This document shows positions 6,486 to 57,612 of a DNA stretch of 64,000 nucleotides, piece after piece; positions within the stretch are counted from its first letter, which is position 1; the number at the start of each line of letters is the position of its first letter. The position numbers and the translations under genes are program-made. The notes under the pieces are model-generated. The model was not told the DNA's origin and did not search any database. It saw only the letters and a list, made by a program, of their open reading frames with translations. This DNA comes from Chloroflexota bacterium (GTDB lineage Bacteria; Chloroflexota; UBA6077; FW602-bin22; JACPRP01). The stretch is from contig JAMCWX010000075.1 in the NCBI GenBank assembly GCA_023480885.1, positions 1 through 64,000 on the forward strand, in the 5' to 3' direction.

Positions 6486-8117
6486 TTACGATTCGGAGGT
6501 CTGATCTTTTTCGCTGAGCCTCGCGGCGACCATTTTCCGTAGCGTGGTCTTGTCGACTTTGGTCAGCCCACCGGTGCCCTTCGGCAGTTCTTGAAAGACC
6601 TCGAGGCGCTCGGGTAGCTTGAAAGGCGCGATTTTCTCGCGTCTCAGGAATTCAGCCATTTCCTGGAAGGTCAGCATCTGGCCCGGCTGAAGGACGACAC
6701 AGGCGCAGACCCGTTCCCCGAAAACTTTATCAGGAATTCCAATCGCTGCCACTTGAGCCACCTTCGGGTGCTTCGCAAGAAGGTTCTCCACGTCGGCAGG
6801 GTAGATATTCTGCCCACCCCGAATGATGATATCCTTCAGTCTGCCAGCCAAAACGACATTACCCGCGGCGTCCATCTGGCCGAATTCCTGTGTGTCGAAG
6901 AAGCCGGTCGCCCACGACTCCGCCTGCAGTGCTGGATTACGATGATAGCCTGCAACTGCGTGTGCCCCGCGTACAAGGATTCGACCGACCTCACCTCTCG
7001 GCACATCTCGTCCCAGATCGTCCACGAGACGCAGCTCGTTGCCGTCCAGGGGTTTCCCAACGGTCCCTAGTCTTACGTCCGAAGGGTCATCATAGCACGT
7101 CGCGCAGATGCCACCATAGTCCGCCGAGCCGTAGGCCTGAACTACTTTCGCTCCCGTGCGAGCCTCTACTTCCTGTGCAAGTTCTGACACCAGAAGGGCG
7201 CCATGACTGACGACGACACGCAAATTCGCAACGCGATCACGTGACAATGTCGGAAGCTGGACAAACTGGGCGAGCATCGTGGGAACGACAATGGCTACTG
7301 TGACCTTTTCCCTCTCGATAACTTCCAGCGCTTCCTGCGCATTAAAGTGGCTAGGCAGAACTAGCTTTGCACCAAGACGGGCACCATTATAGTAAGCGAG
7401 AGAGTTCGAAGTGCCTGTTGTCAATGGCGTGAAGGCCCCAATAACGTCAGAAGATGTCACGCGATACCGTTGCGCCTGAACATACCCGGTGAGGAACCTG
7501 GATGCGATGGGCACGTCGACACACTTTGGCACGCCTGTCGAACCGCTAGTTGTTTGGATTTCGGCCACATCAAAGAAGCCGATCTTGGTCTGAGCGAGCG
7601 TGTGACCTCCGTGGATGGGTGTCGAGAGGAGTTCTTCAAGGAGGACGGCTCCCGATGCACAGGTCTCTCCTGCCGCAACGATTCTCAGGCCCGAGTCGTT
7701 CCCGATCAGACTGGATATCATTCGAACGTAGTCGACGTCTCGATATTTCGATTTCACGAGGGCCACAGAGGGGCGCACGTGCTCGATAATGGCTCGCAGC
7801 TCAGCCTCCCTGAAGCTGACAGGAGCGGAAACAAGCCTGACCCCTGCTTTTTCACACGCGACGCGAATAGTGAAGAGATCGACGCCGTTTGGCATTTGCA
7901 CGAGCGCCACATCTTCTCGGCCAAGCCCAAGGTCGAGAAGCGCTAGCGCCATCCTATCGGTGCGCTGCTTGACTTGTCTCCAGCTGAGGCGCGTGTCATC
8001 GCCAACTAACGCTTCGGCGTCGCCCATAACGTCAGCATTGCGATCGATAGCTTCGGAGACGGCTATGGAATCGACTGGTTTCAGAAAAGCTGCTTCGCGA
8101 GAGGTCTCTTGGTTCAA
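6486..8117 (-). CDS. acyl-CoA synthetase / AMP-dependent ligase (ANL superfamily)
   Basis: The 543-residue protein forms an acyl-adenylate and transfers the acyl group to CoA. Motifs seen are the P-loop TTSGSTGVPK, the A5-type YGSADYGG, the hinge GRLKDIIIRGGQNIYP and the C-terminal KGTGGLTKVDK containing the adenylation lysine region. It resembles short- or medium-chain, aryl and cyclohexane-carboxylate CoA ligases; the substrate cannot be fixed. The start is TTG at 8117 in the best frame, preceded by GGGGGAG. It lies 17 bp after the stop of the leftward flavin reductase, so the two genes form an operon: activation of a carboxylate to its CoA thioester plus reduction of an enoyl-type bond. 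Confidence 0.88.
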   Translation of the reverse strand: MNQETSREAAFLKPVDSIAVSEAIDRNADVMGDAEALVGDDTRLSWRQVKQRTDRMALALLDLGLGREDVALVQMPNGVDLFTIRVACEKAGVRLVSAPVSFREAELRAIIEHVRPSVALVKSKYRDVDYVRMISSLIGNDSGLRIVAAGETCASGAVLLEELLSTPIHGGHTLAQTKIGFFDVAEIQTTSGSTGVPKCVDVPIASRFLTGYVQAQRYRVTSSDVIGAFTPLTTGTSNSLAYYNGARLGAKLVLPSHFNAQEALEVIEREKVTVAIVVPTMLAQFVQLPTLSRDRVANLRVVVSHGALLVSELAQEVEARTGAKVVQAYGSADYGGICATCYDDPSDVRLGTVGKPLDGNELRLVDDLGRDVPRGEVGRILVRGAHAVAGYHRNPALQAESWATGFFDTQEFGQMDAAGNVVLAGRLKDIIIRGGQNIYPADVENLLAKHPKVAQVAAIGIPDKVFGERVCACVVLQPGQMLTFQEMAEFLRREKIAPFKLPERLEVFQELPKGTGGLTKVDKTTLRKMVAARLSEKDQTSES

Positions 8118-8134
8118 GGCAAACCCTACTCCCC

Positions 8135-10099
8135 CTAGATTTTGAGCGCAAGTTCTAGCGCGGCGCCAGTTCCCGCGATGGCGTGTTGCACCTCTGCCGC
8201 GTTGCCCAATGTGTATGTTTCAGGAACGATGTTCTTGATAGCTTGATAAAGGCTGTCGTCTGACACGTATCCGACGGCCAGAACTACGGTATCAGCAGGA
8301 ATGAATGCGTCCTCTTTGCCGCTGCGAGCCACAACCCCATCGCGTCTGATCTCGGTAACCTCGGCTGGGGCGAGCGTATGCACACCAGATGATTCGAGTT
8401 CTCGACGCAAGACCCACCGTGTGCCAGGGCCAAGCCCTTTCCCCACGCTGGGATTACGTCCCACAAGCGTCACGTCGTGCTTTTGCCCGACGAGGGTAGA
8501 TTCGTTCTCCATCGCGGCAAACTCGCGCAGAAACGATAGTGTGGTGCGATCGGGAGCCCACCTTTGAGCCAGATAGATTGCCGTCTCAACTCCGACGCCC
8601 CCTCCGCCAATGACCGTCGCTCTGGGGCCTACCTGGACTTTGCCTTCCAGGACATCATGGGCAAAGACGACATGCGGCAAGTCGGCCCCACGGATTGCGG
8701 GAATCCGTGGCTTTGCTCCCGTGGTGACGATCACGGCGTCGGGGGCTATGTCTCGCACGAGTTCAGGGGTCACCTCAGTCGCCAGATGAATGTTTACGCC
8801 GGCGCGCTTTACTTGCCGCGAGAGCCAGTATAGAAAGTTGAGAAGCTCGCCTCTCCCCGCTGTGACAAACGATGCTCGCCACTTCCCCCCGAGGTAGCTC
8901 TCTTTGTCGTACAGGCTTACTCGGTGGCCACGCTCAGCGCAACTTAGCGCTGCCTGAAGGCCGGCAATTCCACCGCCGACGACCACGACCTTTCTAGACT
9001 TGGAGGCAGCAGGCAGTGGCGCTCTTTCGGAAACACGACCAACCTTGGGATTCACCAGGCATCGCACCTCCTTCTCCCTCGCCGTCGCGGCATCCAAGCA
9101 CTCGTTGCACGCGACGCACAGGCGGATGTCCTCGAACTCACCCTCTAGCGCCTTGCGAGGCCAATCGGGGTCGGCCAGCGACGCCCTGCCGAGGCTGACG
9201 AAGTCGGCCCATCCCTTGCGGAGGATCTCCTCGGCGATGACAGGATGGTTGATGCGATTGGAGGCTGCGACAAGGGCTTGTGGCTGAACAGCGCTCTTTA
9301 TCTCGCGGGCCAGGAAGGCGAACGCTCCACGCGGAACGTTAGGGGTTAGCTGAGGCACAGAAGTTGCGTGGCTGCCGCCAGTTACGTTGAAAAAGCTGAC
9401 GCCCGCGTCGGCCAGGGCCTTGGCGATCCTTTTCGCCGTTTCGTTAGTGTAGCCCTTGGGCAGGAACTCTCCGCCGTGAAGGCGGAAGAAGACAGGATAA
9501 TCATCGCCTAGTTCCCTCCTGATGCCACGCAGCATCTCCATCGGGAACCGCAGGCGGTTTTCGAAGCTGCCACCCCATGTATCAGTGCGATCGTTAAAGA
9601 CTTCTGAGAGAAAAATGCTGATTCCCCCGCCACCTACGCCAAGGAGGTCGACGGCGTCATATCCAGCCTCTCGCGCTCGCACCGCGCTTTCGATGACGCT
9701 GGCGACCATGCGCTCAATTAATTCTGCTGGAATGGTAGATAGCTTCGGAAAAGTACGCATCTCGTGCAGTGGCCAGATACGTCGTATGCCAATCTGAGCG
9801 TAAATCACGGTGCCGTAATCTTTGGCAGCCTTTACCAGTTCGGCGTGGCGGCGAACGTGTTGCTTGTTTTGAAGCAGAAGCTCAAGCGGACTGGACCATT
9901 CGAAAGGATGGGAGTCGATTATGCCTACTCCCACCATTCCAAAGCCGCCTTTGGCTCGGGCCAGGTAATACTCAATCGCTCGATCAGTTATGCCTTCGTC
10001 CCTGTTGCCCAGATTGGTGTGCATCGCTGGCACCACCAGCCTGTTCTTCACCTTCAAACCCTTGATCGTCGCTGGCTCGAACATCTTTTGTAGAATCAC
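8135..10099 (-). CDS. FMN/FAD/[4Fe-4S] enoate or 2,4-dienoyl-CoA reductase-like oxidoreductase
   Basis: The 654 residues have the layout of 2,4-dienoyl-CoA reductase (FadH), enoate reductase and BaiCD enzymes. An old-yellow-enzyme TIM barrel (about 1-340) contains NRLVVPAMHTNLG and FLSEVFNDRTDTWGGSFENRLRF. A cluster motif follows, C-x2-C-x3-C-x11-C (CVACNEC...RC), and then an FAD/NAD(P) domain with VVVVGGGIAGLQAA and a second GGGGVGVETA. It probably reduces an activated alkene with NAD(P)H. The start is GTG 10099 behind GGGAGGGACCAG. It is the first gene of the leftward pair with the acyl-CoA ligase and is divergent from the ABC-transporter cluster, so both may respond to the regulatory sites at 10227-10370. 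Confidence 0.88.
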   Translation of the reverse strand: MILQKMFEPATIKGLKVKNRLVVPAMHTNLGNRDEGITDRAIEYYLARAKGGFGMVGVGIIDSHPFEWSSPLELLLQNKQHVRRHAELVKAAKDYGTVIYAQIGIRRIWPLHEMRTFPKLSTIPAELIERMVASVIESAVRAREAGYDAVDLLGVGGGGISIFLSEVFNDRTDTWGGSFENRLRFPMEMLRGIRRELGDDYPVFFRLHGGEFLPKGYTNETAKRIAKALADAGVSFFNVTGGSHATSVPQLTPNVPRGAFAFLAREIKSAVQPQALVAASNRINHPVIAEEILRKGWADFVSLGRASLADPDWPRKALEGEFEDIRLCVACNECLDAATAREKEVRCLVNPKVGRVSERAPLPAASKSRKVVVVGGGIAGLQAALSCAERGHRVSLYDKESYLGGKWRASFVTAGRGELLNFLYWLSRQVKRAGVNIHLATEVTPELVRDIAPDAVIVTTGAKPRIPAIRGADLPHVVFAHDVLEGKVQVGPRATVIGGGGVGVETAIYLAQRWAPDRTTLSFLREFAAMENESTLVGQKHDVTLVGRNPSVGKGLGPGTRWVLRRELESSGVHTLAPAEVTEIRRDGVVARSGKEDAFIPADTVVLAVGYVSDDSLYQAIKNIVPETYTLGNAAEVQHAIAGTGAALELALKI

Positions 10100-10226
10100 C
10101 TGGTCCCTCCCTTCAGACCGAGAAAGCGTTTTGCTGCGCTAGAATATCGACACGTTGCGGCCAAGTTTGACAACGTGAAAGTGATTGCGATTGCTAGCCT
10201 TGGCTCAGAAGCCCAATTTCACTCTG

Positions 10227-10370
10227 AGAAATGGCATTTCTATGGCGCTAATGGTAGCACTGAAGTGACAGGTTGTCAAGAGCATTGTGAACTGTGAAAT
10301 GGGCATTCTGAAATGGCTTGACAACGTGCAATAAGGGTGATAATATCCGTGTATTAGAAAATGGATTTCT
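10227..10370 (+). promoter_or_regulatory. array of three AGAAATG-n-CATTTCT palindromes (operator-like)
   Basis: A perfect 15-bp palindrome AGAAATGGCATTTCT lies at 10227-10241. Two degenerate copies follow: TGAAATGGGCATTCT at 10295-10309, just before the -35, and AGAAAATGGATTTCT at 10356-10370, just after the -10. The centres are 68 and 61 bp apart, close to six helical turns. The placement suggests a repressor or activator acting on the 10627 operon and perhaps on the divergent pair at 6486-10099. No regulator gene for it is in the window. Confidence 0.55.
10318..10346 (+). promoter_or_regulatory. promoter of the ABC-transporter/catabolic operon
   Basis: A perfect TTGACA (10318-10323) is followed after 17 bp by TAATAT (10341-10346), overlapping TGATAAT. 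The leader to the first start codon is about 275 bases. The decamer TTGACAACGTG around this -35 is repeated at 10167-10177. Confidence 0.6.
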
Positions 10371-10626
10371 CATAGTGAAATATAACCCTTTCATTGCTGT
10401 CGTCCTGAAATGAAACGGCTCTCGATACCTCACAGGTCTCGCCGCGGCAGTAGATTCTTGTGCACGGCTGCCGAGGTGCGATCGACAGATTGCCCATTGG
10501 TCACGCGTTTGAGTGTGCAACGAGTCCTTCCGCGGAAGGAGGTGGTAGTTTCGGCGCTTTGGTCACGAGGGGCTGCTAACCTGTTCCAGAATCGCGTTCA
10601 AAGTATCTCTAAAGAGGAGGAGAAGC

Positions 10627-11562
10627 ATGAAACGTCTTGCGTTCCTAGCATTGATTCTCGCGATTGTCACGAGCCTTGCTGTCAGCGCTTGCAGCACGCA
10701 GACGGCACCTGCGAGCAAGCCGGCTGCCGATACGCAGGCTAAACCAGCGGCTGACACCCAGGCTAAGCCCGCGGCTGATACTCAAAGCAAGCCGGCTGCT
10801 AGCAGTTCCTCGGCAACGAAGGATGATACCGTCGATAAGATCAAGAAGCGGGGCGAGTTGATCGTGGCGATGACCGGTACAAACTGGGGATTCAATATGG
10901 TCAACCGCAACAACGAAACCATCGGGTATGATGTCGACATAGCTAAGAAGGTTGCGGAGAAGCTTGGGGTAAAGCTCAGCATTCAGTTGCAGAAATGGCC
11001 TGGCCTCATCCCGTCGCTCCAGGCTGGCAAGGTGGATATGATCTCCGCGGGCATGACCATTACCCCGCAGAGGAAGGAGACAGTCGATTTCTCCGACACC
11101 TATGTCAAGGAAGGTAAACTCCTTTTGGTCAATAAGGCCAAACATCCCAATGCCTCCAGCGTAGAGGAGTTCAACAAGCCGGGAATCCAGATAGGCGTGA
11201 CTGCAGGTTCGACCGATGAAACTGCGGCTATGGCGTTCCTGCCCAAGGCGAGTATTCTGAGGTTCGACTCGGGCGTTAGCACCGGCCTTGAGTTGCAGGC
11301 AGGCCGAATTGATGCGATGCCAGCCAATATCGCCTGGGCCAGGATTTACAGTAAGCTGAACGCAGACAAGGTCCGTCTGATTGATAAGCCTTTCCAGCCC
11401 GAGGACTATGGCATTGCTGTCGCAAAGGGAGCGGATTCCCTCCGTGCGGTCGTGAATCAGGTTCTCAAGGAGCTTAAGGCATCTGGCGAATATCAGAAGA
11501 TCTACGACAAATGGTTCGTCACTTTGGACTGGCTCAATGAAGTGGAACTTCTCAAGAAGTAG
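10627..11562 (+). CDS. ABC transporter substrate-binding lipoprotein, polar amino acid family (SBP family 3)
   Basis: The 311-residue protein begins with a lipoprotein signal (MKRLAFLALILAIVTSLAVSAC, lipobox AVSAC, Cys22). A linker contains three copies of the octapeptide KPAADTQA/S. The binding domain has the family-3 features GYDVDIAKKVAEKLGVKL, GKVDMISAGMTITPQRK, VDFSDTYV and GVTAGSTDETAA. It would capture an amino acid or amino-acid-like ligand outside the membrane and hand it to the permease at 11650. ATG start with AAAGAGGAGGAG. It heads the catabolic cluster, so the ligand is probably the substrate degraded by the downstream enzymes. The ligand itself cannot be deduced. Confidence 0.92.
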   Translation: MKRLAFLALILAIVTSLAVSACSTQTAPASKPAADTQAKPAADTQAKPAADTQSKPAASSSSATKDDTVDKIKKRGELIVAMTGTNWGFNMVNRNNETIGYDVDIAKKVAEKLGVKLSIQLQKWPGLIPSLQAGKVDMISAGMTITPQRKETVDFSDTYVKEGKLLLVNKAKHPNASSVEEFNKPGIQIGVTAGSTDETAAMAFLPKASILRFDSGVSTGLELQAGRIDAMPANIAWARIYSKLNADKVRLIDKPFQPEDYGIAVAKGADSLRAVVNQVLKELKASGEYQKIYDKWFVTLDWLNEVELLKK

Positions 11563-11577
11563 GGCATAGATGAAAGG

Positions 11578-11618
11578 TTGTCCTTGGCGACTGGTCACCA
11601 CCGGGTCGCCAAGGACAA
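11578..11618 (+). other. 13-bp perfect hairpin between binding-protein and permease genes
   Basis: TTGTCCTTGGCGA (11578-11590) pairs exactly with TCGCCAAGGACAA (11606-11618) around a 15-base loop. There is no T-run, so it is more likely an mRNA-stabilising or partial-termination structure that keeps binding-protein mRNA above permease mRNA than a full terminator. Confidence 0.65.
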
Positions 11619-11649
11619 TCGGAACTGCTAATAGAAAGGTTGGGGCGGT

Positions 11650-12306
11650 TTGGAAGATTTCTCATTGCCAGTCCTATTGAATTACTTGCCTCTTCTGCTG
11701 TCAGGCCTGCCTGGCACTGTTGGCATCGCTTTCTTCGCCATCTTATGTGGCGTTTTCATCGGCTTTTTTGCAGGGCTGGCTAGGGTCTCGCTTAACCCGG
11801 TCATCAAGCACCTTGCAACGATCTACGTCGAGGTTATTCGCGGTGTCCCATTGCTCGTCATCATCTATCTTATTTACTTCGGCCTCGGCTCGTTCGTGGA
11901 CATTCCGCGTTACGCGGCGGCGGTCATCTCACTCGGCGTTTTTAGCGGCGCCTATGTCGCAGAAATCTTCAGGGCTGCGGTCGAATCTGTCCCCAGTGGC
12001 CAGATGGAGGCCGCCCTATCTGTTGGCCTCACACGAGGCCAGGCGCTCCGCAAGATCATTTTGCCTCAAGCGTTGAAAAGGATGGTGCCTCCCTTAGCAG
12101 GTCAGTTCATCTCTCTGACCAAAGATTCCTCGCTCGCTTCCGTCATCGCTATTCCCGAACTGACCTTGACCACCTATCAGGCCATCACGATGACCTTCCG
12201 TTCATTTCAGTTCTGGATGACAACAGCCTTTATGTACTTTGTGCTTGGCTGGGTATTGCAGCGGGTGGCTCGTTACCTCGAGAGGAGGTTTGCCGTCATT
12301 GATTAG
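11650..12306 (+). CDS. polar amino acid ABC transporter permease (HisM/GlnP type)
   Basis: The 218-residue membrane protein has about five transmembrane segments. It carries the permease EAA motif [36 protein letters not shown] (about 113-149, shown here as the segment after AAVE) and the early [19 protein letters not shown] typical of HisMQ/GlnP proteins. It forms the channel with the ATPase at 12299. The best start is TTG at 11650, giving [10 protein letters not shown] and preceded by AAAGGTTGGGG. Its last eight bases overlap the ATPase gene, which implies translational coupling. Only one permease gene is present, so it probably works as a homodimer. Confidence 0.92.
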
Positions 12307-13021
12307 GTTAATTGGCTTGAATAAATGGTTTGGGAAGCACCACGTGCTGGTAGATATCAACGAACACGTGAAACCTGGCGAGGTGGTAGTGATCATTGGT
12401 CCGAGTGGGTCGGGTAAGACAACCCTGATTCGCTGCATCAATGTTCTGGAGAAAGCGGATAAGGGAGAGATATTCGTGAACGGAGTACCTGTTCACAATC
12501 CAAAGACAAATCTTTGCGAGCTTCGCCAGCAGGTTGGATTCGTGTTTCAGCATATCAATTTGTTTCCACACATGACAGCGCTGGAGAACGTGACTTTTGC
12601 GCCGGCGGAGGTCAAGCTCATGAGCAAGAAGGAAGCAACAGACGTGGGGATGGATCTGCTGAACAAGGTTGGGTTGGCGGAGAAGGCGCATAGTTTTCCG
12701 GGGCAGTTGTCTGGAGGGCAGAAGCAGCGCGTCGCGATAGCGCGAGCGTTGGGGATGCGGCCGAAAGTAGTGTTATTTGACGAGCCGACATCGGCGTTGG
12801 ACCCGGAGATGATCAAGGAAGTGCTGGAGGTAATGAAGCAGCTTGCATACGATGGGATGACGATGGTGGTGGTGACGCACGAGATGGGCTTTGCTCGTGA
12901 GGTGGCGAACCGCGTCGTATTCATCGATCAGGGCAGAGTGGTGGAAGTTGGCACGCCAGAGCATTTCTTCACGAATCCTCAGACGGATCGAGCGAAACTG
13001 TTTCTCAGTAGGATCCTCTGA
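12299..13021 (+). CDS. polar amino acid ABC transporter ATP-binding protein (GlnQ/HisP type)
   Basis: Taking TTG 12299 as start gives [17 protein letters not shown] and 240 residues, the usual GlnQ length. AGGAGG at 12283-12288 is 10 bases upstream, while an upstream in-frame TTG at 12290 would be only one base from it. Walker A is [10 protein letters not shown], the Q-loop [10 protein letters not shown], the signature [15 protein letters not shown], Walker [15 protein letters not shown] and the H-loop [14 protein letters not shown]. The gene overlaps the permease by 8 bp (TTGATTAG). The second half (from about 12640) uses many more GGG, TTG and GTG codons than the first half, an unusual internal change. 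Confidence 0.92.
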
Positions 13022-13095: not shown

Positions 13096-14253
13096 GTGAG
13101 TGATCTTTACATCGCGGGAGTCGAAGAATTCCGCAACAGATTCCCCATCTTTAGGGAAAAGGTATATATTAACAGTTGCTCGAAGGGCGCACTATCGGAT
13201 CTCGTCGTAGAGGCAATTCAGGAGTTCCTGGATACGTGGCGTTTTCGGGGCTCGCCTTGGGAGGTCTGGGGTGAACGCGTTGCCCAGGCTAGAGCAGCGT
13301 TTGCGAACCTTATCGGTGCCGAGCCGAGAGAGATCGCCGTGAGCTTCTGCGCTTCCACGGCGATAAATGCCATAGCCAGCGCTCTTGAGTATAAAGGGCG
13401 ATCCAAGGTGGTGCTGGGCACTCTCGAGTTCCCTACAATGGCTCACATCTGGCTGGCTCAGCGCAAGCGAGGCGCACAGGTCGTGCGCGTGAACGGCAGG
13501 AATCACAGGCTAGAGCCAGAGGATTATGCCGCTGAGATCGACGAAAACACTCTTATCATACCGATGACCCACGTGTGCTATGAGAACGGGTTCAAGACTG
13601 ATATCAAGAAGGTCATTCAACTGGCTCATTCATTCGGAGCGTACGCGTTTGTCGATGCTTACCAATCGATGGGGACAACTCCTATCAACGTGAAGGAACT
13701 CGACGTCGATTTCCTGGTGAGCGGCTGTCTCAAGTACATGCTTGGCCTTCCAGGCATTGCTTTCCTGTATGTAAAATCGGAGTTGATCGAACGGCTAGAA
13801 CCCTGTGATACGGGTTGGCAAGCCCAATCACTGCGCAACATGCTTAACAACGAAGCGCTAGACTACGCTGAGGATGCACGCCGTTTCCAGAGTGGAACGC
13901 AGGCTGCTCAAAATGCTTACGCGGCTCTCGCAGGAATGCAGATGCTTCAGGCAGTTGGCTTGCCAGCGATCGAGGCGTGGATCGGGGAGCTAACGCAGGC
14001 GATTATCGATGGCGCAATTGCCCGAGGAATGCAGGTGCTCACGCCGACTGATAGGCGAGACAGAGGAGCTATGGTTGCGATCCAATCAAAGGATCCGGCG
14101 GCTGCGGTCGCGGCTTTGCAAGAACATGGGGTTATCGCCTCCTGGCGAGGCAGTGCAGTTCGACTTTCTGTGCACTACTATAACGACATGGATGACGTGG
14201 AAGCTGCTCTGCGTGTTCTTGAATCAAACCGCGATTTAATGGTTGGCGCCTGA
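13096..14253 (+). CDS. PLP-dependent class V aminotransferase / desulfurase-like enzyme
   Basis: The 385-residue protein has the class V fold used by cysteine desulfurases, kynureninase-like and isopenicillin-N-epimerase-like enzymes. PLP contacts visible are D187 and Q190 in FVDAYQSMGT and the Schiff-base K213 in LVSGCLKYMLGLPG. The active-site cysteine loop of true cysteine desulfurases is not evident, so sulfur transfer for cofactor synthesis is unlikely. The GTG start at 13096 follows GGTGAGGG. It sits between the transporter and alanine dehydrogenase, a pairing often used to recycle alanine made by a pyruvate-dependent transaminase or lyase. I infer that it acts on the imported compound. 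Confidence 0.8.
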   Translation: MSDLYIAGVEEFRNRFPIFREKVYINSCSKGALSDLVVEAIQEFLDTWRFRGSPWEVWGERVAQARAAFANLIGAEPREIAVSFCASTAINAIASALEYKGRSKVVLGTLEFPTMAHIWLAQRKRGAQVVRVNGRNHRLEPEDYAAEIDENTLIIPMTHVCYENGFKTDIKKVIQLAHSFGAYAFVDAYQSMGTTPINVKELDVDFLVSGCLKYMLGLPGIAFLYVKSELIERLEPCDTGWQAQSLRNMLNNEALDYAEDARRFQSGTQAAQNAYAALAGMQMLQAVGLPAIEAWIGELTQAIIDGAIARGMQVLTPTDRRDRGAMVAIQSKDPAAAVAALQEHGVIASWRGSAVRLSVHYYNDMDDVEAALRVLESNRDLMVGA

Positions 14254-14273
14254 TCGGAAGGAAGTTACAGAGA

Positions 14274-15383
14274 ATGATTGTCGGTATTCCCAAGGAAGTG
14301 AAGAACAACGAGTACCGCGTGTCTTTGACCCCGTCAGGAGTCGACATGTTGGTGAAGGAAGGGCATCGCGTACTGGTCGAGGAGAAGGCGGGCGTTGGAA
14401 GTGGGTTCGGCGACGAAGATTACCGCGCCGCTGGGGCGGTTATCACGGATCGGGATGTGGTATTCTGCGAAGCTGATCTGGTGGTCAAGGTGAAGGAGCC
14501 TATCCCGGATGAATACGATTTCCTGCGCGAACGCCAACTGCTGTTCACCTATCTGCATTTGGCTGCGAACGAGCACCTTACGCGAACGCTGATGAAGAAG
14601 AAGGTGACAGCTATAGCTTATGAGACGGTAGAAACGTTGAATGGTTTCCTTCCGCTCCTCGCTCCCATGAGCGAGGTTGCTGGACGGATGGCTGTGCAGG
14701 TGGCGGCTCACTACCTGGAAAAGGAGAATGGTGGAGCTGGCAAGCTTTTGGGTGGGGTCCCGGGCGTTGCCCCCTGTAGCGTGGTGATTCTCGGAGCAGG
14801 CGTGGTAGGAACGAACGCCGCGCAGATGGCTCTAGGCATGGGAGCGCGCGTTACCCTGATCGAAAGGAATGTCGAGCGTCTGCGATATTTGAGCACAATA
14901 TTGCACGGCAATCTGACTACGCTTGCGGCCGTGGCTCAGAATACCGCTGATGCCGTGAGAAGTGCTGATGTCGTTATTGGCGCTGCCCTTGTGGCGGGGG
15001 CGAAGGCGCCGCGTCTGGTAACGCGTGAAATGATTCGAACGATGAAGCCAGGCGGCGTCATCGTCGACATCTCGGTGGACCAGGGTGGATGCATCGAAAC
15101 CACACACCCGACAACGCACAGTAATCCAACCTACGAGGTAGATGGCGTCGTGCATTATGGTGTATCGAACATGCCCGGTGCGGTACCTCACACGTCTACC
15201 TATGCGCTTACCAACGTTACCCTTCCGTATATCCTAAAGTTGAGCGCGCTGGGCTTTCAGGCTGCAATTCGCGAAGATGGCGAGTTGGCAAAAGGCGTGA
15301 ACGTTTGCGGTGGTCACCTGACTTCAGTCCCTGTTGCCAACAGCTTCGGATTGCCATACGTGCCCCTCACGGAAGTCGCCTAA
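14274..15383 (+). CDS. ald: alanine dehydrogenase
   Basis: The 369-residue protein interconverts L-alanine and pyruvate plus ammonia with NAD. It begins MIVGIPKEVKNNEYRVSLTPSGV, the standard Ald N-terminus. It has K-VKVKEPIPDEY with substrate-binding lysine and arginine residues, HLAANEHLT, the nucleotide-binding VVILGAGVVGTNAAQMALGMGA and SVDQGGCIETTHPTTHSNP with the conserved catalytic histidine and aspartate region. It lies 20 bp after the class V gene and 102 bp before the cyclic amidohydrolase. In this setting it probably removes alanine and regenerates pyruvate for the neighbouring PLP enzyme. Confidence 0.95.
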   Translation: MIVGIPKEVKNNEYRVSLTPSGVDMLVKEGHRVLVEEKAGVGSGFGDEDYRAAGAVITDRDVVFCEADLVVKVKEPIPDEYDFLRERQLLFTYLHLAANEHLTRTLMKKKVTAIAYETVETLNGFLPLLAPMSEVAGRMAVQVAAHYLEKENGGAGKLLGGVPGVAPCSVVILGAGVVGTNAAQMALGMGARVTLIERNVERLRYLSTILHGNLTTLAAVAQNTADAVRSADVVIGAALVAGAKAPRLVTREMIRTMKPGGVIVDISVDQGGCIETTHPTTHSNPTYEVDGVVHYGVSNMPGAVPHTSTYALTNVTLPYILKLSALGFQAAIREDGELAKGVNVCGGHLTSVPVANSFGLPYVPLTEVA

Positions 15384-15485
15384 CACAGGGTCTTAGTCGG
15401 GAAAATCTTTCTGGTTCTTGCAAGTGTGCATAACCTTCATCGAGAATCGTTCGTGAGTTGCGAGAGAAATCTTTGGAGAAAATAA

Positions 15486-16850
15486 ATGCTTGATCTTAAG
15501 ATCGAAAATGGCACCCTTGTGATACCTGGTGTGGGCCTTGCAAACTGTGGGATTGGCATTTCTGACGGCAAGGTCGCGATGCTCTCTACAGAATCGGATC
15601 TTCCCGATGCGAAAAGGGTGATCGACGCCGCAGGAAAACACGTGCTGCCCGGAGCGATAGATCCACATGTCCATTTGGGCGTGGCGGGTCGTTCGTTTGC
15701 GGATGCTTGCCGAACGGAGACGCGTTCTGCCCTTGCGGGTGGGGTCACAACCAGTATAACAAGGGTGCGCGCGAACACTTCATATTTTGAAATGGTGGAT
15801 GGCCTGATCGATCAGGTTGAGGCTAACTCGTCAACCGACGTGATTCTTCATCTACGCGTAGAAAACCAGCAGCAACTGGAAGAGATACCCGAATACATAT
15901 CGAGATTCGGGATCAACTCTTTCAAAGTCTATATGAGTGGTGTCCCGAATGTAATCTCCTCTGTGAGCGACGCGTTCATACTCGATGTCTTCAAGAAGGT
16001 TGCCGAATTGCCGCAGCCAGCAGTTGTGTGCCTCCACGCCGAAAACGCATCAATGGTAGACGCGGCTCTCGAACGCGTGCTGAAGACGAAACCTAATGGA
16101 ACCCTGGCCGATTGGTCTGAAAGCCACCCGAACGAGGCCGAGGAGGAAGCAGTGATACGTGCCTCTTTCATGGCCTCGATAACAGGTGTCCGGTTGTACC
16201 TCGTTCACATTTCTGCGAAGGGCTCGATCAACCGCCTGAGGCAAATCAGACACGAAAACAGAAATGTATACGTGGAGACTACATCGCCATATCTATCGGT
16301 GAGCAACGATGATCCCGTCGGATTCCTGGCCAAGATGGTGCCGCCTGTGCGGAGCAGGGCGGATGTCGAGGCCCTCTGGCTTGGAGTTCGCGATGGGATC
16401 ATCGATTCGTTCGGCACTGACGATACAGCTCGCAAGCGCGAGATGAAGCAGGTGGAAAAGGGGCTGGCAGGCTCGTCTACGGGGTATCCTGCGGTAGGCA
16501 CTCACCTCGTCGCTTTGCTTCACGAAGGGTGTTGCAAACGAGGGATACCTTTGCTTGATATCGTCGAGAAGGCTTCCGCCAATCCTGCGAAGATTTTCGG
16601 TATCTATCCTCAGAAAGGCACTATTGCCGTGGGGAGTGATGCCGACCTCGTGCTTGTCGATCTCGACAAAGAGCAGAAGGTTGATCCATCTCGCCTGCAT
16701 TCTTTCGCTGATTTCTCCATACTGGAGGGCAGGACTCTTAAGGGATGGCCAGTGATGACCGTCAAAAGTGGGGTTGTGGCGGTGGAAAATGGTGAGATCC
16801 TGGTTGATCCAGGCTTTGGCCATTATCTTCGAAGAGAGGCAAAGAGATAA
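15486..16850 (+). CDS. cyclic amidohydrolase (dihydroorotase / hydantoinase / allantoinase family)
   Basis: The 454-residue protein has the dinuclear-metal barrel of cyclic amidohydrolases. The first metal ligands are in GAIDPHVHLGV (about 57-67). A probable carbamylated lysine is in NSFKVYMSG, further ligands are in CLHAENASM and LVHISAKGS, and the catalytic aspartate is in SFGTDDTA. The C-terminus has the usual GTIAVGSDADLVLVDLD strand. It would open a cyclic amide or imide such as a hydantoin, dihydropyrimidine or allantoin. No pyrimidine-biosynthesis genes are near, so a catabolic role is favoured. ATG start behind TGGAGAAAATAA. Confidence 0.85.
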   Translation: MLDLKIENGTLVIPGVGLANCGIGISDGKVAMLSTESDLPDAKRVIDAAGKHVLPGAIDPHVHLGVAGRSFADACRTETRSALAGGVTTSITRVRANTSYFEMVDGLIDQVEANSSTDVILHLRVENQQQLEEIPEYISRFGINSFKVYMSGVPNVISSVSDAFILDVFKKVAELPQPAVVCLHAENASMVDAALERVLKTKPNGTLADWSESHPNEAEEEAVIRASFMASITGVRLYLVHISAKGSINRLRQIRHENRNVYVETTSPYLSVSNDDPVGFLAKMVPPVRSRADVEALWLGVRDGIIDSFGTDDTARKREMKQVEKGLAGSSTGYPAVGTHLVALLHEGCCKRGIPLLDIVEKASANPAKIFGIYPQKGTIAVGSDADLVLVDLDKEQKVDPSRLHSFADFSILEGRTLKGWPVMTVKSGVVAVENGEILVDPGFGHYLRREAKR

Positions 16851-16918
16851 GTACTCAACGGGCCTGATAACATGAGGGAAGTATCAATTGCTGGCGAAAG
16901 GCGGGTTAGGCGAGAGAA

Positions 16919-18589
16919 GTGAGACTAGCTGGAAAAGAAGTTTTGTGCAGGATTCTTCAGATGGAGGGGGTCAGCGAGGTCTTCGGTAATCCCGGCAGCA
17001 CTGAGGTTCCTTTCATCGACACACTGGTCAACTACCCGAGAACACGTTACGTGCTGGCGCTCCACGAGGGTGAGGCGGTGGCCATGGCTGACGGTTATGC
17101 CAGGGCCTCAGGCAAGGTTGGCGTAGTCAGCGTGCACGCTGCTCCCGGGACGGCTAATACACTGGGCAATCTGTATAACGCCTACATCGATAACATCCCA
17201 CTGGTGATACTGGCCGGCCAGCAGGATTCGAGAATGCTTGTGCGTCAGCCGTATCTCTCAGCGGATCTTGCCAGACTGGCGAGCCAGTTCACGAAGTGGA
17301 GTTGGCAGGTTTCGCGAGTTGAGGAACTGACCGTCGCTTTGCGACGAGCCTTTAAGGAGGCGACTTCTCCACCTGCTGGACCTGTTTTCCTCGCGCTCTC
17401 CCGAAACGTGCTCGATGAGACGACTGAATACGAGGACATTCCTGCTTCGAAGTTCACAGTCTCCGACAGAACAAGAGGTGATATCGATGAGGTTCGTAAG
17501 GCTGCCGAACTCCTGGTAGCTGCCAAAAGCCTGGTTATCGTCGCTGGGGAAAGGGTTGGCAGGGCTGGCGCGGTGGCTGAGTTGGTAGAACTGGCAGAAA
17601 TGCTGGGCGCACGTGTTTACGGCGAGGCCAGCGCCTTTCCGACAGGACATCCTCAATACGTTGGGCCCATCGAAAGGCAGATCGGTTCGTTAGCTAACGC
17701 AGGAGATACAATCCTCGCCGTCGGCATGCGATTGTTCCCCGAGTTCTCCTATTCCACCGGGCCGATGTTCCCCAAGGAGACGTCGCTTGTTCATCTCGAC
17801 GTCAATCCCTGGGAGATCGCCAAGAACATCCCTGTGGACGCTGGGATAGTTGCCAACATCAAGATAGGGTTGAGAGAACTGATTTCTGAGACAAGAGTGC
17901 TGCTGGACTCGACTCGACGGGAAGGTATCGAGCAACGACTTGGAGAGGTGAAACGCCGCAGGGCGGCTGTCCAGGATGCTCTTGAGCGTGACCTTCGCGC
18001 GGTGTGGGACGCGGTGCCTATTCGTGTCCCGCGTTTGCTCAAGGAAATGCAAGAAGTCCTGCCCCATGATGCTATCATAATCGACCAGAGCATACGCAGC
18101 GCGACTTATCTCAGGAGATACTTCGAGTTTACCACGCCTGGAACGTATTTCTCAGAGGGAGGTGGGTGTCTTGGCTGGGGAATTGGTGCATCTGTGGGAG
18201 CGCAACTGGCCAGGCCCGATCGTAGGGTGGTTGGCTTCCTGGGTGACGGATCGGCGAACTTCGGTCCCAAGAGCCTGTGGACCGCGGCGAAATACAATAT
18301 TCCAGTTGTCATAATCGTCATCAATAATCGTGGCTACGCGGCTGTGAAGGGTCTGCTTCTTTCCTACAAAGGCGAGGCTGCGGAGCAGGGCATGTTTATA
18401 GGCGCTGAGATATCAGGATTGGATTACGTCAAACTTGCTGAAGCTTACGGCGTACGTGGCTGGAGAGTCGAGATGCCCGGGGAAATCAGGCCCACGCTCG
18501 AACAAGCCCTGGGCACTGGCGGGCCAGCGCTGTTAGAAGTTGTCGTCGATCCAAAGGACTTAGGTTTCGGTATGCCTCGTCTGCAATAG
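16919..18589 (+). CDS. thiamine-diphosphate enzyme, benzoylformate decarboxylase-like
   Basis: The 556-residue protein has the three-domain ThDP decarboxylase layout. Close to benzoylformate decarboxylase (MdlC) are VFGNPGSTEVPFI (Ser27), the cofactor-activating Glu50 in LALHEGEAV, His73 in SVHAAPGTAN, and AGQQDSRML. The ThDP-Mg motif is GDGSANFGPKSLWTAAKY ending in NNRGY. It probably decarboxylates a 2-oxo acid to an aldehyde, but acetolactate-synthase-like or oxalyl-CoA-like chemistry cannot be excluded. It starts at GTG 16919 and is the last gene of the cluster. With transamination upstream it could act on the keto acid derived from the imported amino compound. Confidence 0.83.
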   Translation: MRLAGKEVLCRILQMEGVSEVFGNPGSTEVPFIDTLVNYPRTRYVLALHEGEAVAMADGYARASGKVGVVSVHAAPGTANTLGNLYNAYIDNIPLVILAGQQDSRMLVRQPYLSADLARLASQFTKWSWQVSRVEELTVALRRAFKEATSPPAGPVFLALSRNVLDETTEYEDIPASKFTVSDRTRGDIDEVRKAAELLVAAKSLVIVAGERVGRAGAVAELVELAEMLGARVYGEASAFPTGHPQYVGPIERQIGSLANAGDTILAVGMRLFPEFSYSTGPMFPKETSLVHLDVNPWEIAKNIPVDAGIVANIKIGLRELISETRVLLDSTRREGIEQRLGEVKRRRAAVQDALERDLRAVWDAVPIRVPRLLKEMQEVLPHDAIIIDQSIRSATYLRRYFEFTTPGTYFSEGGGCLGWGIGASVGAQLARPDRRVVGFLGDGSANFGPKSLWTAAKYNIPVVIIVINNRGYAAVKGLLLSYKGEAAEQGMFIGAEISGLDYVKLAEAYGVRGWRVEMPGEIRPTLEQALGTGGPALLEVVVDPKDLGFGMPRLQ

Positions 18590-24266: not shown

Positions 24267-25643
24267 ATGTCCAAGAGCCGCTCCAGAACAGTTTTTGTGT
24301 GCCAACAATGCAGCGCCGAGAGCCCGCGTTGGGGCGGTCGATGTCCAAACTGCGGCGCGTGGAACAGCATGGTCGAGACGATCGAAAGCTCGGTCGGTTC
24401 CGCGAGCCCGGCCGGCGGCCTTCGCGGCCAGCCAGAGGCGATCACGCGCATCGCCGCCGACAGCTTTCGTCGCGTCGAGGTGCCCATCGACGAGTTCAAC
24501 AGGGTCCTGGGCGGTGGCATAGTTCCTGGCTCGCTGGTCCTGATCGGCGGCGACCCTGGTATCGGCAAGTCAACCCTTCTCCTCCAGGTATCTGGCGTCC
24601 TGGCCAGGGCCATAGGCAAGGTCCTCTACGTTTCGGGCGAGGAATCGGCGCATCAGATCAAGATGCGCGCCGACAGGCTGGGAGCGAACGCCGACAACCT
24701 CTTCATCCTGGCGGAGACGAATCTGAATGCGATTATGCAGTCCATTCAAGACGTAACTCCCTCCCTGGTCATCATCGACTCGATTCAGACGGTCTACCTG
24801 GACGAGCTCGAGTCCGCGGCAGGCAGCGTTGGCCAACTGCGCGAATGCACGATGGCTTTAATGCGTTTGGCAAAATCGTCGCACATCCCCATCTTCCTGG
24901 TCGGCCACGTTACCAAGGAAGGAGCTATCGCCGGTCCGCGAGTGCTGGAGCACATCGTCGATACGGTGCTTTACCTGGAGGGGGAGCGTTTCCATACCTA
25001 TCGTCTTCTCAGGGGCGTTAAGAATCGCTTTGGCTCCACGAATGAAATTGGCGTGTTCGAGATGTGCAACGAGGGGATGGTGGAGGTGCCGAATCCCTCG
25101 CAGGTGTTCCTGTCCGAGCGCCAGGGGACGAACCCTGGCTCGACGGTTGCCGTGACGGTCGAAGGCACGCGGCCTCTTCTTGTGGAAGTTCAAGCTTTGA
25201 CGACGGCGACGAACTTCGGCCTTCCAAGACGCACCGCGAATGGCATAGATTATAGCCGCCTCTTGCTCTTGACCGCTGTGCTCACCAAACGGGTGGGACT
25301 TGGCCTTTCGAACCAGGATGTTTACGTCAACATTGTCGGCGGAATCAAGATAGCCGAGCCCGCCATCGACCTTGGCGTGGCGCTGGCTATCGCCTCCAGC
25401 TTCAAGGATGTTCCAATCGCGCCTGACCTCGTGGCGATTGGCGAAATCGGGCTCTCGGGCGAGCTGCGGCGCGTTGCCCAGGTGGAGAAGCGTCTGACTG
25501 AGGCAGCGAAGCTAGGCTTCAAGCGTTGTCTGCTGCCTGGTTCGATCGACGATACCAGGTTGGCCAGATCGATCGGCATAGAGACTATCGGCGCCCGATC
25601 GGTCGCCGAGGCGCTCGAGATTGCCTGGAGCAACCGATTTTGA
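24267..25643 (+). CDS. radA: DNA repair protein RadA/Sms
   Basis: RadA is a RecA-like, DnaB-type branch-migration ATPase used in recombination. The 458-residue protein starts MSKSRSRTVFVCQQC. It has the four-cysteine zinc finger CQQC...CPNC (about residues 12-30), Walker A GGDPGIGKSTLL, the RadA-specific KNRFGSTNEIG motif and a C-terminal Lon-like domain (IVGGIKIAEPAIDLGVALAIASS). Full length for the family. Its last codons contain the TTGACA of the next promoter. Confidence 0.97.
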   Translation: MSKSRSRTVFVCQQCSAESPRWGGRCPNCGAWNSMVETIESSVGSASPAGGLRGQPEAITRIAADSFRRVEVPIDEFNRVLGGGIVPGSLVLIGGDPGIGKSTLLLQVSGVLARAIGKVLYVSGEESAHQIKMRADRLGANADNLFILAETNLNAIMQSIQDVTPSLVIIDSIQTVYLDELESAAGSVGQLRECTMALMRLAKSSHIPIFLVGHVTKEGAIAGPRVLEHIVDTVLYLEGERFHTYRLLRGVKNRFGSTNEIGVFEMCNEGMVEVPNPSQVFLSERQGTNPGSTVAVTVEGTRPLLVEVQALTTATNFGLPRRTANGIDYSRLLLLTAVLTKRVGLGLSNQDVYVNIVGGIKIAEPAIDLGVALAIASSFKDVPIAPDLVAIGEIGLSGELRRVAQVEKRLTEAAKLGFKRCLLPGSIDDTRLARSIGIETIGARSVAEALEIAWSNRF

Positions 25644-46202: not shown

Positions 46203-46279
46203 GGGCAATTAGCTCAGTTGGTTAGAGCACACGGCTTACATCCGTGAGGTCGTAGGTTCGAATCCTACATTGCCCACCA
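46203..46279 (+). tRNA. tRNA-Val (anticodon TAC), CCA encoded
   Basis: Acceptor arms GGGCAAT and ATTGCCC pair fully. D arm TAGCTCAGTTGGTTAGAGCA, anticodon stem CACGG/CCGTG with loop CTTACAT, T arm GTAGGTTCGAATCCTAC, discriminator A and CCA at 46277-46279. Its 3' half is repeated at 46989-47026. Confidence 0.96.
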
Positions 46280-46347
46280 ATCGAGCCTGGTCAAGCAGGC
46301 TTTCTGCTATCTGACCTCCCAGGCTTCCCCGACCATTGGAGGCGGTG

Positions 46348-46911
46348 ATGGACCCGGCCACGCTGTTGGTGGCATTACTGGTAGTATCTGTCCTCGTCTG
46401 GGCGCTCTTCCTCGGGTTCGTTGGCCTGCTGGGGTATCGGCTCATCGGCCGCGCCGGGCAGGGCTGGCTCGCCTTCCAGGCCGCCTTCATGCTGCCGGGC
46501 CCGCGTCGGGAGGTCATCCGGCTCAGGGTGCAACTGACCCGTGAAGTGCGCGGTGCCAGAAAGGCGCTCTCCACGATTGATGCCAACGGCGCAACGCGAG
46601 GCGAGCTGGCCATCCTGGTGCGTCGACTGGAACGCCTGGCGCAAACCCTGGACAGCCAGTTGCGTCTCTTGAGTTGTGAGCCAGACGAAGAGATGCTTCG
46701 TGGCTTTCTTCGCCCGGCGCGACAGCGCGTGGAGGAGTTCGTGGGCGCCACCAGGCGCATCCGGCAGGTAGCCCTGGCCGTGCTTGGTGGGGAGACCGAC
46801 GACACCCTTCACCGGTTAACGTCTGACGTGGACCGCGAAGTCCTAGCGCTTCAAGCAGGAGTAGATGCCCTGCAAGCCCTGGCCGCGCAGCAACTGGAAG
46901 ACAAACACTGA
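46348..46911 (+). CDS. membrane-anchored coiled protein of unknown function in the tRNA-Val interval
   Basis: The 187-residue protein starts at ATG 46348, five bases after GGAGG. A single membrane helix lies at about residues 4-29 (LLVALLVVSVLVWALFLGFVGLLG). The rest is Arg- and Leu-rich and helical, without recognisable motifs (EVIRLRVQLTREVRGARKAL, RRLERLAQTLDSQLRLL). I do not recognise a family. It is the only gene between tRNA-Val and the displaced tRNA 3' half, so it may be the last cargo of a small integrated element, or simply a host gene between duplicated tRNAs. Confidence 0.6.
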   Translation: MDPATLLVALLVVSVLVWALFLGFVGLLGYRLIGRAGQGWLAFQAAFMLPGPRREVIRLRVQLTREVRGARKALSTIDANGATRGELAILVRRLERLAQTLDSQLRLLSCEPDEEMLRGFLRPARQRVEEFVGATRRIRQVALAVLGGETDDTLHRLTSDVDREVLALQAGVDALQALAAQQLEDKH

Positions 46912-46988
46912 GACACCCGCGCTTGCTTTTTCCACACGAGGACCAGACCCTTGCTGCGGCTTTGAAGCAGCCCTTCATCGAAAGCCAA

Positions 46989-47026
46989 ATCCGTGAGGTC
47001 GTGGGTTCGAATCCTACACTGCCCAC
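46989..47026 (+). repeat. displaced copy of the tRNA-Val 3' half (possible att site)
   Basis: 38 bases match 46240-46277 with no gap and two mismatches (A to G at 47003, T to C at 47019), offset 749 bp. The copy starts in the anticodon loop and ends at the acceptor end, with CGA in place of CCA. No 5' half precedes it. Confidence 0.85.
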
Positions 47027-47033
47027 GAGGTTT

Positions 47034-47055
47034 GCCCCAGAATGGGGCTTTTTTT
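47034..47055 (+). terminator. intrinsic terminator after the tRNA remnant
   Basis: GCCCC (47034-47038), loop AGAAT, GGGGC (47044-47048), followed by seven T. This is one of the two clear intrinsic terminators in the window; the other is at 57613-57636. Confidence 0.85.
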
Positions 47056-47120
47056 GTTGGATTGCTGGTCGACAACACCACAGAAACCGTCAACTTCGAT
47101 TGTGGTTCCCCACTCTTCAC

Positions 47121-47756
47121 TCACATCGTTGGCACTGACTGGGCAGATCGCCACTCAACCGGACAGAACAGCATAAACCCGTCAGCTTTGGCTACTGTCA
47201 GGGGGGACTGGCTTTTTGCAATGGGCGCTCGACCAATGTGGAAAAAGGCTGATGCGGACTTCGCCAACTCAGCCGAATAACGATCCGGCGGGAACGCGAT
47301 TACCACTCGCTTCGCTGGGAAGAGCTTCACAAGGGAGTTCACTGCAGGAGTGAGGTCAGCATCAGCCGAAATCAATAGCGCGGTGTCAAAGCTGTCGAGG
47401 ACGGCATCTTCCAGGAGCTTTACGGCGATGTTGACATCGGTCATCTTTTCACTTGGCACACTATCTTGGAATCCACAGCTCCGACACAGCCGACGATTGA
47501 GCTGATATTTGCCTTCCATGATCTCCAATTCGGACAGTGTTTGTAGTGCCTCAATGAAGGTTGACTGGCGCTTTCGCTTACCCTGCGGTCCGTTAATTCG
47601 GGCCGTAAAGTACTTCGTGCCGACAAGCATCTGGTTGGGCCGCAGTAGTCGTGAGGCCAGTTCTTTGACGTTCAGCCAGTAGTAGCGCTTCCAGCCCTTG
47701 GATTTCAGTCCAAAGTAAAGGTTGAAACCATCGACGTAGGCTATTACTCTTTCCAA
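47121..47756 (-). CDS. NYN-domain (PIN-like) ribonuclease, LabA/DUF88 family
   Basis: The 211-residue protein starts at TTG 47756, four bases after AGGAGG. Family motifs are VIAYVDGFNLYFGLK (first aspartate), EKMTDVNIAVKLLEDAV (second) and TALLISADADLTPAVNSLVKLFP (last aspartates). One CRSC pair is present at about residue 93. NYN proteins are metal-dependent RNases found in housekeeping and in phage-defence settings. Here it stands alone behind its own promoter at the left end of the accessory region. Confidence 0.87.
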   Translation of the reverse strand: MERVIAYVDGFNLYFGLKSKGWKRYYWLNVKELASRLLRPNQMLVGTKYFTARINGPQGKRKRQSTFIEALQTLSELEIMEGKYQLNRRLCRSCGFQDSVPSEKMTDVNIAVKLLEDAVLDSFDTALLISADADLTPAVNSLVKLFPAKRVVIAFPPDRYSAELAKSASAFFHIGRAPIAKSQSPLTVAKADGFMLFCPVEWRSAQSVPTM

Positions 47757-47800
47757 AAAGCCTCCTAACCTACTTGACAAGACGCAGTTGGAGCGCTAGT

Positions 47801-47809
47801 ATTATAGCA
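47801..47809 (-). promoter_or_regulatory. extended -10 (TGCTATAAT, minus strand) of the NYN gene
   Basis: Read on the minus strand, TATAAT is at 47806-47801 with TG upstream, 45 bases before the TTG start. No good -35 was found. Confidence 0.5.
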
Positions 47810-47815
47810 TACAGC

Positions 47816-47867
47816 GCCAACGATAGCATCGTTGGCTTGGCGTTCCCTTCTTGACTGGAGGGAACGC
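47816..47867. other. two adjacent perfect hairpins
   Basis: GCCAACGAT-AGC-ATCGTTGGC (47816-47836) is followed by GCGTTCCCT (47840-47848) pairing with AGGGAACGC (47859-47867) around a 10-base loop, then TTCTCTTTG. They could be a factor-independent terminator for plus-strand transcripts, a recombination site, or operator sites for the NYN promoter beside them. Confidence 0.6.
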
Positions 47868-48641: not shown

Positions 48642-48651
48642 CTAACCAAAA

Positions 48652-51007: not shown

Positions 51008-51124
51008 CGGGAGGAAGTGGCCAATGCAGACGCGCTTGCTGGCGCCTGATGTTCCCCACAAAGGCCATCCTCGTGCCGTCGCCTGTTCACAGCCGCGGGC
51101 CGTGTTCCCTGAAGTTATAGCAGA

Positions 51125-52960: not shown

Positions 52961-53045
52961 TCAGACGTGTCTTACTCCGCGATGCCTTGTATCGTACGGC
53001 ACGAGTTCGTCGGCCGAACACTGTCCAAAAAAGATTGCGCACACT

Positions 53046-53051: not shown

Positions 53052-53088
53052 CTAAACGAACGAGCTTTAGGAAAGGTTCATTTGTACC

Positions 53089-57590: not shown

Positions 57591-57612
57591 TGCGATTCAG
57601 AGGAAGCACGTT

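Follow-up and report, generated by a model that had tools for sequence, protein, structure and literature searches.

The intergenic region between two divergent gene sets, in a window of 64,000 nucleotides from a Chloroflexota bacterium (the window is the whole stretch of DNA that was analysed), holds an imperfect mirror-image, or quasi-palindromic, divergent control region of 166 bp at 10216-10381, with its centre at 10298.5. In our view this region is probably a two-way promoter with a shared repressor, whatever the family of that repressor may be. More specifically, we favour a mirror-symmetric divergent promoter on which an unlinked repressor of the IclR family binds the two ends of the element, O1 and O3, and closes both promoters, a tentative reading to which we give slightly less than an even chance. 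We infer the promoter activity, the start sites, the repression and the ligand, as well as the protein family, the last from the geometry of the boxes in the sequence.

On the plus strand the region is followed by an amino-acid type ABC transporter (10627-13021), composed of a family 3 substrate-binding protein (10627-11562), a permease (11650-12306) and an ATPase (12299-13021), and by the presumed remainder of the operon (13096-18589), which encodes a class V aminotransferase-fold enzyme, an alanine dehydrogenase, a dihydropyrimidinase-like amidohydrolase and a thiamine-diphosphate enzyme. The alanine dehydrogenase exceeds the curated cut-off of TIGR00518, and the other enzymes of 13096-18589 stay below their equivalog cut-offs. 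On the minus strand lies a divergent pair (6486-10099), in which the first gene (8135-10099) encodes an FMN/FAD oxidoreductase of the old-yellow-enzyme/2-enoate reductase type and the second (6486-8117) an AMP-binding acyl-CoA ligase-like enzyme. To judge from orientation and spacing, each side probably forms one operon. Among the proteins scanned in 1-21.6 kb (with Pfam, and with NCBIfam for the thiamine-diphosphate enzyme) there is no DNA-binding regulator domain, which bears out the remark of the initial annotation that no regulator gene is near; the open reading frame at 1073-1438 (121 aa) matches nothing in Pfam. Elsewhere in the window, the part at 46203-58743, which comes after a tRNA gene, is possibly a genomic island and contains an Eco57I/TaqI-like restriction-modification protein (54822-57590), a D12-class adenine DNA methyltransferase (48652-49968), an NYN-domain protein (47121-47780) and a MerR/DUF433 protein (58099-58743).

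In the mechanism that we propose, the rightward promoter (P-plus) would drive the operon of the ABC transporter, aminotransferase, alanine dehydrogenase, amidohydrolase and thiamine-diphosphate enzyme, and the leftward one (P-minus) would drive the flavoenzyme and the acyl-CoA ligase. An IclR-family regulator encoded elsewhere would sit on O1 and O3 as a dimer or tetramer and block RNA polymerase at both starts, and a weaker middle site, O2, would help by cooperativity or by keeping O1 and O3 together in a looped complex. The substrate of the pathway or its CoA thioester would then free the repressor, and the uptake and breakdown arms would come on together. If this is true, the region offers a small and testable example of an alternating-box repressor that closes a two-way promoter as one symmetric complex, and the uncharacterised flavoenzyme/CoA-ligase pair and the amino-acid-type transporter operon would belong to one co-regulated pathway. 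Eight candidate regulator proteins can be named, six of the IclR family and two of the PaaX family (on contigs C33 and C2).

Mirror symmetry of the divergent region

A search for inverted matches in 10100-10626 returned one long imperfect palindrome, namely 10216-10381. About its centre 49 of 83 pairs match, the top value among 127,640 window centres at that arm length (mean 21.2, sd 4.2), a rank that is partly after the fact since the arm length of 83 was taken from the found element itself; with arms of 60 pairs the same centre shares third place in the window (31 pairs vs the best 32). Directly outside the element the symmetry falls to 14/66. Inside, it amounts to 21/26 at the ends and 6/6 in the -35 block, and is near chance (7/19) at the centre. 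An earlier test, which omitted self-overlapping matches and hence the mirror itself, was unremarkable, as 11 of 200 shuffles reached its score. The second-best centre in the window, 24482.5 (24400-24565, 45/83 pairs), lies in GC-rich coding sequence of a radA-like gene and is probably due to chance. We also compared 13 divergent regions, some of them delimited by crude gene calls: by the measure of 83 pairs the present region has 49, a pair on contig C46 has 42 and the rest have at most 35, and by the measure of 60 pairs the values are 31, 34 and at most 29, respectively. The layout of 10216-10381 is ordinary in kind and unusually neat.

The initial annotation had described this stretch as one perfect 15-bp palindrome and two degenerate copies, 68 and 61 bp apart, which frame a promoter in the manner of a cooperative regulator. 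On re-reading the sequence, the perfect palindrome about a central G (AGAAATGGCATTTCT, 10227-10241) is present, and so is the degenerate copy AGAAAATGGATTTCT at 10356-10370, with three mismatches to the former. With a middle copy centred at 10302 the two centre-to-centre spacings are right, but this copy is weak, having four mismatches, and is missed by a 15-mer scan at up to three mismatches. A predicted -35 and -10 (TTGACA-17-TAATAT) do lie between the flanking repeats, but a second promoter-like site on the minus strand, at mirrored coordinates, had been overlooked. Likewise, a layout of several regulator sites round a promoter is supported, but that promoter is predicted to fire both ways, and the repeated unit extends beyond the palindrome: the conservation includes the palindrome but actually spans 10216-10241 and 10356-10381 (21/26).

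Neither in the window nor in the genome does the 15-mer exceed chance. At up to three mismatches the window has 5 matches vs 2.0 +/- 1.53 expected, a number reached in 8 of 100 shuffles, and at up to two mismatches the whole genome has 9 places vs 8 for the backward control. The genome scan that had been proposed as a check for a regulon mostly fails, since seven of the eight other places at up to two mismatches are within or overlap predicted reading frames and the remaining one, on contig C23, is at the start of an unassigned gene. The repeats are real, yet in our reading they are only part of a longer multi-part arrangement of predicted binding sites, which is repeated in mirror image. As a separate observation on C23 (L008 1-2492), GAAATGGCATTTC stands at a gene start and is identical to the O1 core, probably by chance, and the genes there resemble by eye a phage portal and terminase, without a Pfam match.

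Predicted promoters and three-box operators

A consensus scan of 9900-10900 found two sigma-70-like sites vs 0.8 +/- 0.7 in shuffles, which is about 1.7 sd above. They are P-plus (10318-10346, plus strand; TTGACA, 17 nt, TAATAT) and P-minus (10251-10279, minus strand; TTGACA, 17 nt, TACCAT), both with a TG extension and both with a score of 10/12. The coordinates of the two predicted promoters sum to 20597, as do those of O1 and O3, so the mirroring about 10298.5 is exact. At the consensus level, then, two sigma-70-type promoters would fire outward, with a putative operator on each.

The putative operator O1 (10216-10241, plus strand) reads ATTTC-N7-GAAAT-N3-ATTTC and includes the palindrome at 10227-10241, and O3 (10356-10381, minus strand) is its inverted copy (21/26) and includes the copy at 10356-10370. 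If the start sites are assumed to lie 7 nt past the -10 boxes, O1 would occupy about +4 to +29 of P-minus, and O3 would occupy the same positions of P-plus. The end sequences of the element are ATTTCACTCTGAGAAATGGCATTTCT and ATTTCACTATGAGAAATCCATTTTCT, and their best-conserved part, ATTTCACTMTGAGAAAT, overlaps the earlier palindrome only partly. Of 500 dinucleotide shuffles of 10100-10626, one produced inverted 26-bp arms as good as these. By a sequence-blind score, which asks for boxes of alternating direction with one shared box sequence, O1 has 15/15 and O3 13/15; the value of O1 was reached by none of 1000 shuffles with its own spacing, and by 3 of 1000 with a choice of three spacings. The pattern TTYC-N7-GRAA-N5-TTYC is exact in both O1 and O3, and with its flanking RY/R positions it has two exact places genome-wide, both of them here. 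At up to one mismatch it is not enriched: the genome has 12 places vs 14 in the control, and the window has 4 vs 1.87 expected, with 11 of 100 shuffles reaching 4.

The weak putative operator O2 (10284-10309, plus strand) is degenerate, is in the register of O1 and lies between the two -35 boxes. It is the best further match inside 10242-10355, with 17/26 to O1 and 14/26 to O3, and was equalled in 30 of 2000 shuffles; scores of its level occur at 14 places in the window on both strands, O1, O2 and O3 counted in. As an operator it is no more than suggestive.

Two other features stand near these sites. A direct repeat, TTGACAACGTGMAA, at 10167-10180 and 10318-10331, puts a further -35-like copy upstream of O1, with no good -10 to go with it. 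In the long leader ahead of the substrate-binding protein gene there is a perfect 16-bp palindrome, TCCTTCCGCGGAAGGA, at 10525-10540, which overlaps an AAGGAGG Shine-Dalgarno-like stretch with no obvious start codon.

Beyond the window, the 13-mer core at up to one mismatch has 58 places in the genome vs 30 in the control, the 17-mer at up to three mismatches 11 vs 3, and the composite at up to two mismatches 5 vs 1, the five being O1, O3, two shifted readings over O1 and C75:61299. The idea of a regulon was tried with the 15-mer, the 13-mer (50 of its 58 places), the 17-mer, the composite and the three-box pattern and was rejected, as none of these scans turned up the full operator a second time in the genome; nor did it turn up in 28 other genomes of the class. 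We read the context of 31 other places, among them C74:18147, C74:31555, C74:84272 and C75:61299, and a crude codon-usage gene finder placed 4 of the 31 in intergenic sequence, namely C63:14716, C33:32003, C34:21629 and C23:956, the last of which is read as a gene start; of the four, C33:32003 alone stood out as of interest.

Relatives with the same operon were likewise not found in the genomes, the G044 locus and the plasmid records searched. A search of 150 other genomes with the substrate-binding protein found nothing at 1e-40, and in a scan of genome contigs the best 80 of its 157 relatives have 28-38% identity. The aminotransferase has a relative of 49% identity in the genome G044 and weaker matches in 29 other genomes, and by tblastn the 19.9 kb round it in G044 lacks the rest of the operon and holds only ATPases of another ABC type. 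In the plasmid records all relatives are below 60% identity.

Candidate regulators and competing readings

For the IclR family, Suvorova and Gelfand (PMC8222616) give a group 1 motif, WTTYCRYW3RYGRAAW (among variants), and a group 2 motif, TGRAACAN1-2TGTTYCA, and predict for 32 IclR groups three-box alternating sites that combine the two; they list HisJM-GlnQ transporters among the regulog members and report that the centre of a site is usually 20-80 nt before the gene start. The box spacing of O1 and O3 is that of group 1 plus group 2 and of the three-box sites. With regard to the group 1 consensus, O3 fits at 16/17 and O1 at 15/17 positions, the TTYC-N7-GRAA spacing being exact in both, and at up to two mismatches the window has 4 places vs 1.59 expected (5 of 100 shuffles give as many). 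The group 2 pair GRAA-N5(6)-TTYC is exact in spacing, and for O1 the full consensus reaches 8/14, in the core only, the other bases being different. The group 1 centres lie 125 bp (O1) and 254 bp (O3) before the called gene starts, beyond the usual distance.

Six IclR_C genes score over the cut-off in the genome, one each on C7, C42, C56 and C65 and two on C46, and none was found on C74, the contig of the window. Because of this, and because there is no second full copy of the operator, the region has no genetic link to any IclR regulator; at a genome completeness of 88.7%, and with a window that begins at a contig end, the regulator may also sit in missing sequence. No ATTTC-type site was found at the six genes. 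At the C56 gene (L147 4789-4842), TTGACA and TATAGT are directly followed by a near-perfect ATTCC-N6-GGAAT-N3-ATTCC, whose score of 15/15 was reached by none of 1000 shuffles with N6 allowed (three spacings) and by 69 of 1000 with N7 only. The C42 gene has GTTTC-N7-GCAAC-N3-GTTTC with 13/15, equalled in 40 of 1000 shuffles, or in 124 of 1000 with three spacings. By eye, the C56 and C42 sites directly follow a -10-like sequence, as O1 and O3 do, and the other four upstream regions have no significant three-box site. All six IclR proteins stay candidates.

Our confidence in the IclR family, which had stood slightly above an even chance, was lowered because boxes linked to a PaaX gene turned up on contig C33. 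In the locus L182 (C33:24000-43586), at 7116-9177, a PaaX-family gene is followed by an enoyl-CoA hydratase gene, and four boxes stretch across the end of the first gene and the gap. The regulator might accordingly be this PaaX-family protein (C33:31115-31978), which would bind GAAAT-N3-ATTTC and sense the acyl-CoA formed by the left-hand ligase, a reading that we regard as unlikely, at about one chance in five. If the protein binds at both places, the common unit would be the core palindrome that the initial annotation had singled out. The gene has all three PaaX domains; GAAAT, ATTTC, GAAAT and ATTTC follow each other within 44 bp between it and the hydratase gene; and C33:32003 is one of five perfect GAAAT-N3-ATTTC cores among the matches listed, with further boxes at 31972 and 31989. 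Across 247,973 bases of the same genome, at least three boxes starting within 45 bp were met solely at C74 and C33, but the count is biased, the C33 locus having been chosen for its core and the loci partly picked by motif matches. Besides, the PaaX of E. coli represses divergent operons and responds to phenylacetyl-CoA (PMC9493321). However, the box adjoining the C33 core stands at N9, where IclR-type spacing needs N7, no promoter-like site was found at the C33 boxes, and the promoter-like stretch ahead of the PaaX gene has single boxes only. The E. coli site TGATTC(N27)GAATCA is absent at O1-O3 at up to three mismatches, and it is not enriched in the window (18 places vs 24.8 expected) or at C33. 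The second PaaX gene, on C2, has no box cluster by eye in 2 kb, and no PaaX gene was found on C74. As for further targets, the core at C33:32003, the sole other intergenic case of the five perfect cores among the matches listed, makes one more possible.

The divergent promoter and its operators may also be real and be served by a regulator of yet another family, such as GntR, LacI, MarR, Lrp/AsnC or similar. The boxes are short and AT-rich and able to serve several families, and they have no linked IclR or PaaX gene, but the N7/N5 alternation of three boxes is a published IclR signature (PMC8222616), and a close three-box version stands at one or two of the six IclR genes of the genome; we think this improbable. 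Somewhat more improbable still is activation, in which a regulator would recruit the polymerase from a site that lies between the -35 boxes and covers about -40 to -69 of either promoter, with O1 and O3 of minor importance. O2 is nearly symmetric and at an activator distance from both promoters, and a title cited in PMC8222616 presents PcaU, an IclR-family protein, as an activator. Nevertheless O2 is the worst of the copies (17 and 14 of 26), those at the start sites are the best, and both -35 boxes are perfect TTGACA.

A reading without regulatory design, in which the mirrored stretch would have been left behind by a small mobile element with inverted repeats or would stem from an inverted duplication by accident, is very unlikely. 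It is true that the 166-bp element is bounded by two 26-bp inverted ends and that the symmetry is lost abruptly outside them. On the other hand, the other nine places of the 17-mer all have three mismatches and eight of them lie in predicted genes, the 28 other genomes of the class have no copy at up to three mismatches, and no target duplication is visible by eye. The mirrored -35 hexamers and the placement at the start sites favour function, with which an origin by inverted duplication is compatible. Finally, an action of the repeats in RNA, as a similar 5' leader on both transcripts, is hardly credible: O1 and O3 do lie within the first 30 nt of the predicted transcripts and are alike in the sense direction, but in folding neither the predicted 5' ends (z 0.13 and -0.23) nor the long leader (z -0.09) surpasses shuffles, O2 would lie outside the transcripts, and Rfam (T-box, riboswitch and other leader RNAs) has nothing over threshold in the region, the best hit being 12.2 bits vs a threshold of 88.

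A parallel on contig C46 and known systems

Returning to a shared repressor of the IclR family as the preferred reading, a parallel within the same genome is found on C46, where an old-yellow-enzyme-type gene and an IclR gene point away from each other. The 122-bp intergenic region between them is mirror-symmetric (L146 15372-15493), with 34 of 60 pairs, the top value among the 39,454 centres of that locus. The resemblance extends by eye to a mirrored -35/-10 pair, with inverted boxes beyond both promoters and an old-yellow-enzyme gene on one side; the differences are that the other gene is the IclR regulator itself and that the boxes are GTTCA-like vs ATTTC here. We also note in this promoter an outer palindrome, AGTTCAATATGTTGAACT, with a mirror copy (L146, C46:17000-36866, at 15320-15495). 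The place C46:21752 is genic by the crude codon-usage gene finder, and by eye there is a promoter there. Mirror symmetry of this order was not seen in the 320 bp ahead of 29 further IclR genes (28 in other genomes and the one on C56): z is 5.5 for the C46 locus and 4.2 for the next, the neighbouring genes being taken in whatever orientation. It is conceivable, at hardly more than one chance in five, that this genome builds two-headed promoters as almost exact mirror images, with identical three-box operators at the start points and a weak middle one, closed by one unlinked repressor as a single symmetric complex, of which there would be at least two cases (here and on C46), perhaps by inverted duplication of a promoter and operator beside old-yellow-enzyme genes.

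In the open-licence literature, consulted mostly as titles and abstracts on the operators of IclR and PaaX and on divergent promoters with three operators or with symmetric sequence, we found no prior description of the mirrored three-box layout. Several known systems share single features with it. The E. coli PaaX closes two divergent catabolic operons, paaZ and paaABCDEFGHIJK (PMC9493321), as one repressor is proposed to do here, and a PaaX gene of this genome, on C33, adjoins GAAAT/ATTTC boxes; its site TGATTC(N27)GAATCA, however, has no counterpart here. AcrC of Actinoplanes, a LacI/MalR type regulator of acbE-acbD (PMC5526262), has two operators in a divergent intergenic region, one of them downstream of the start, is encoded outside the gene cluster and has been proposed to form a loop, but it belongs to another protein family and has another motif, and the part of that source drawn on here reports no mirrored promoter pair. 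Rco of the plasmid pLS20 (PMC4207663) likewise combines divergent promoters, several operators and a tetramer loop, but there the promoters overlap, the regulator is one of the divergent genes and the function is conjugation instead of catabolism. PheR of Sphingobium (PMC13273656) is an IclR repressor which protects +23 to -21 at a catabolic start, apparently cooperatively, but it acts on one promoter and its core is GCAACG. A further likeness is to the three-box operators of the IclR family, such as those of PcaU, PobR and HmgR (PMC8222616), which have the same alternating boxes, TTYC-N7-GRAA plus GRAA-N5-TTYC, and catabolic or transport targets. In contrast to those, the present region has two mirror-image full copies on a predicted divergent promoter together with a degenerate third, its sites lie far from the gene starts, the regulator would be unlinked, and ATTTC was not seen at the IclR sites of the genome.
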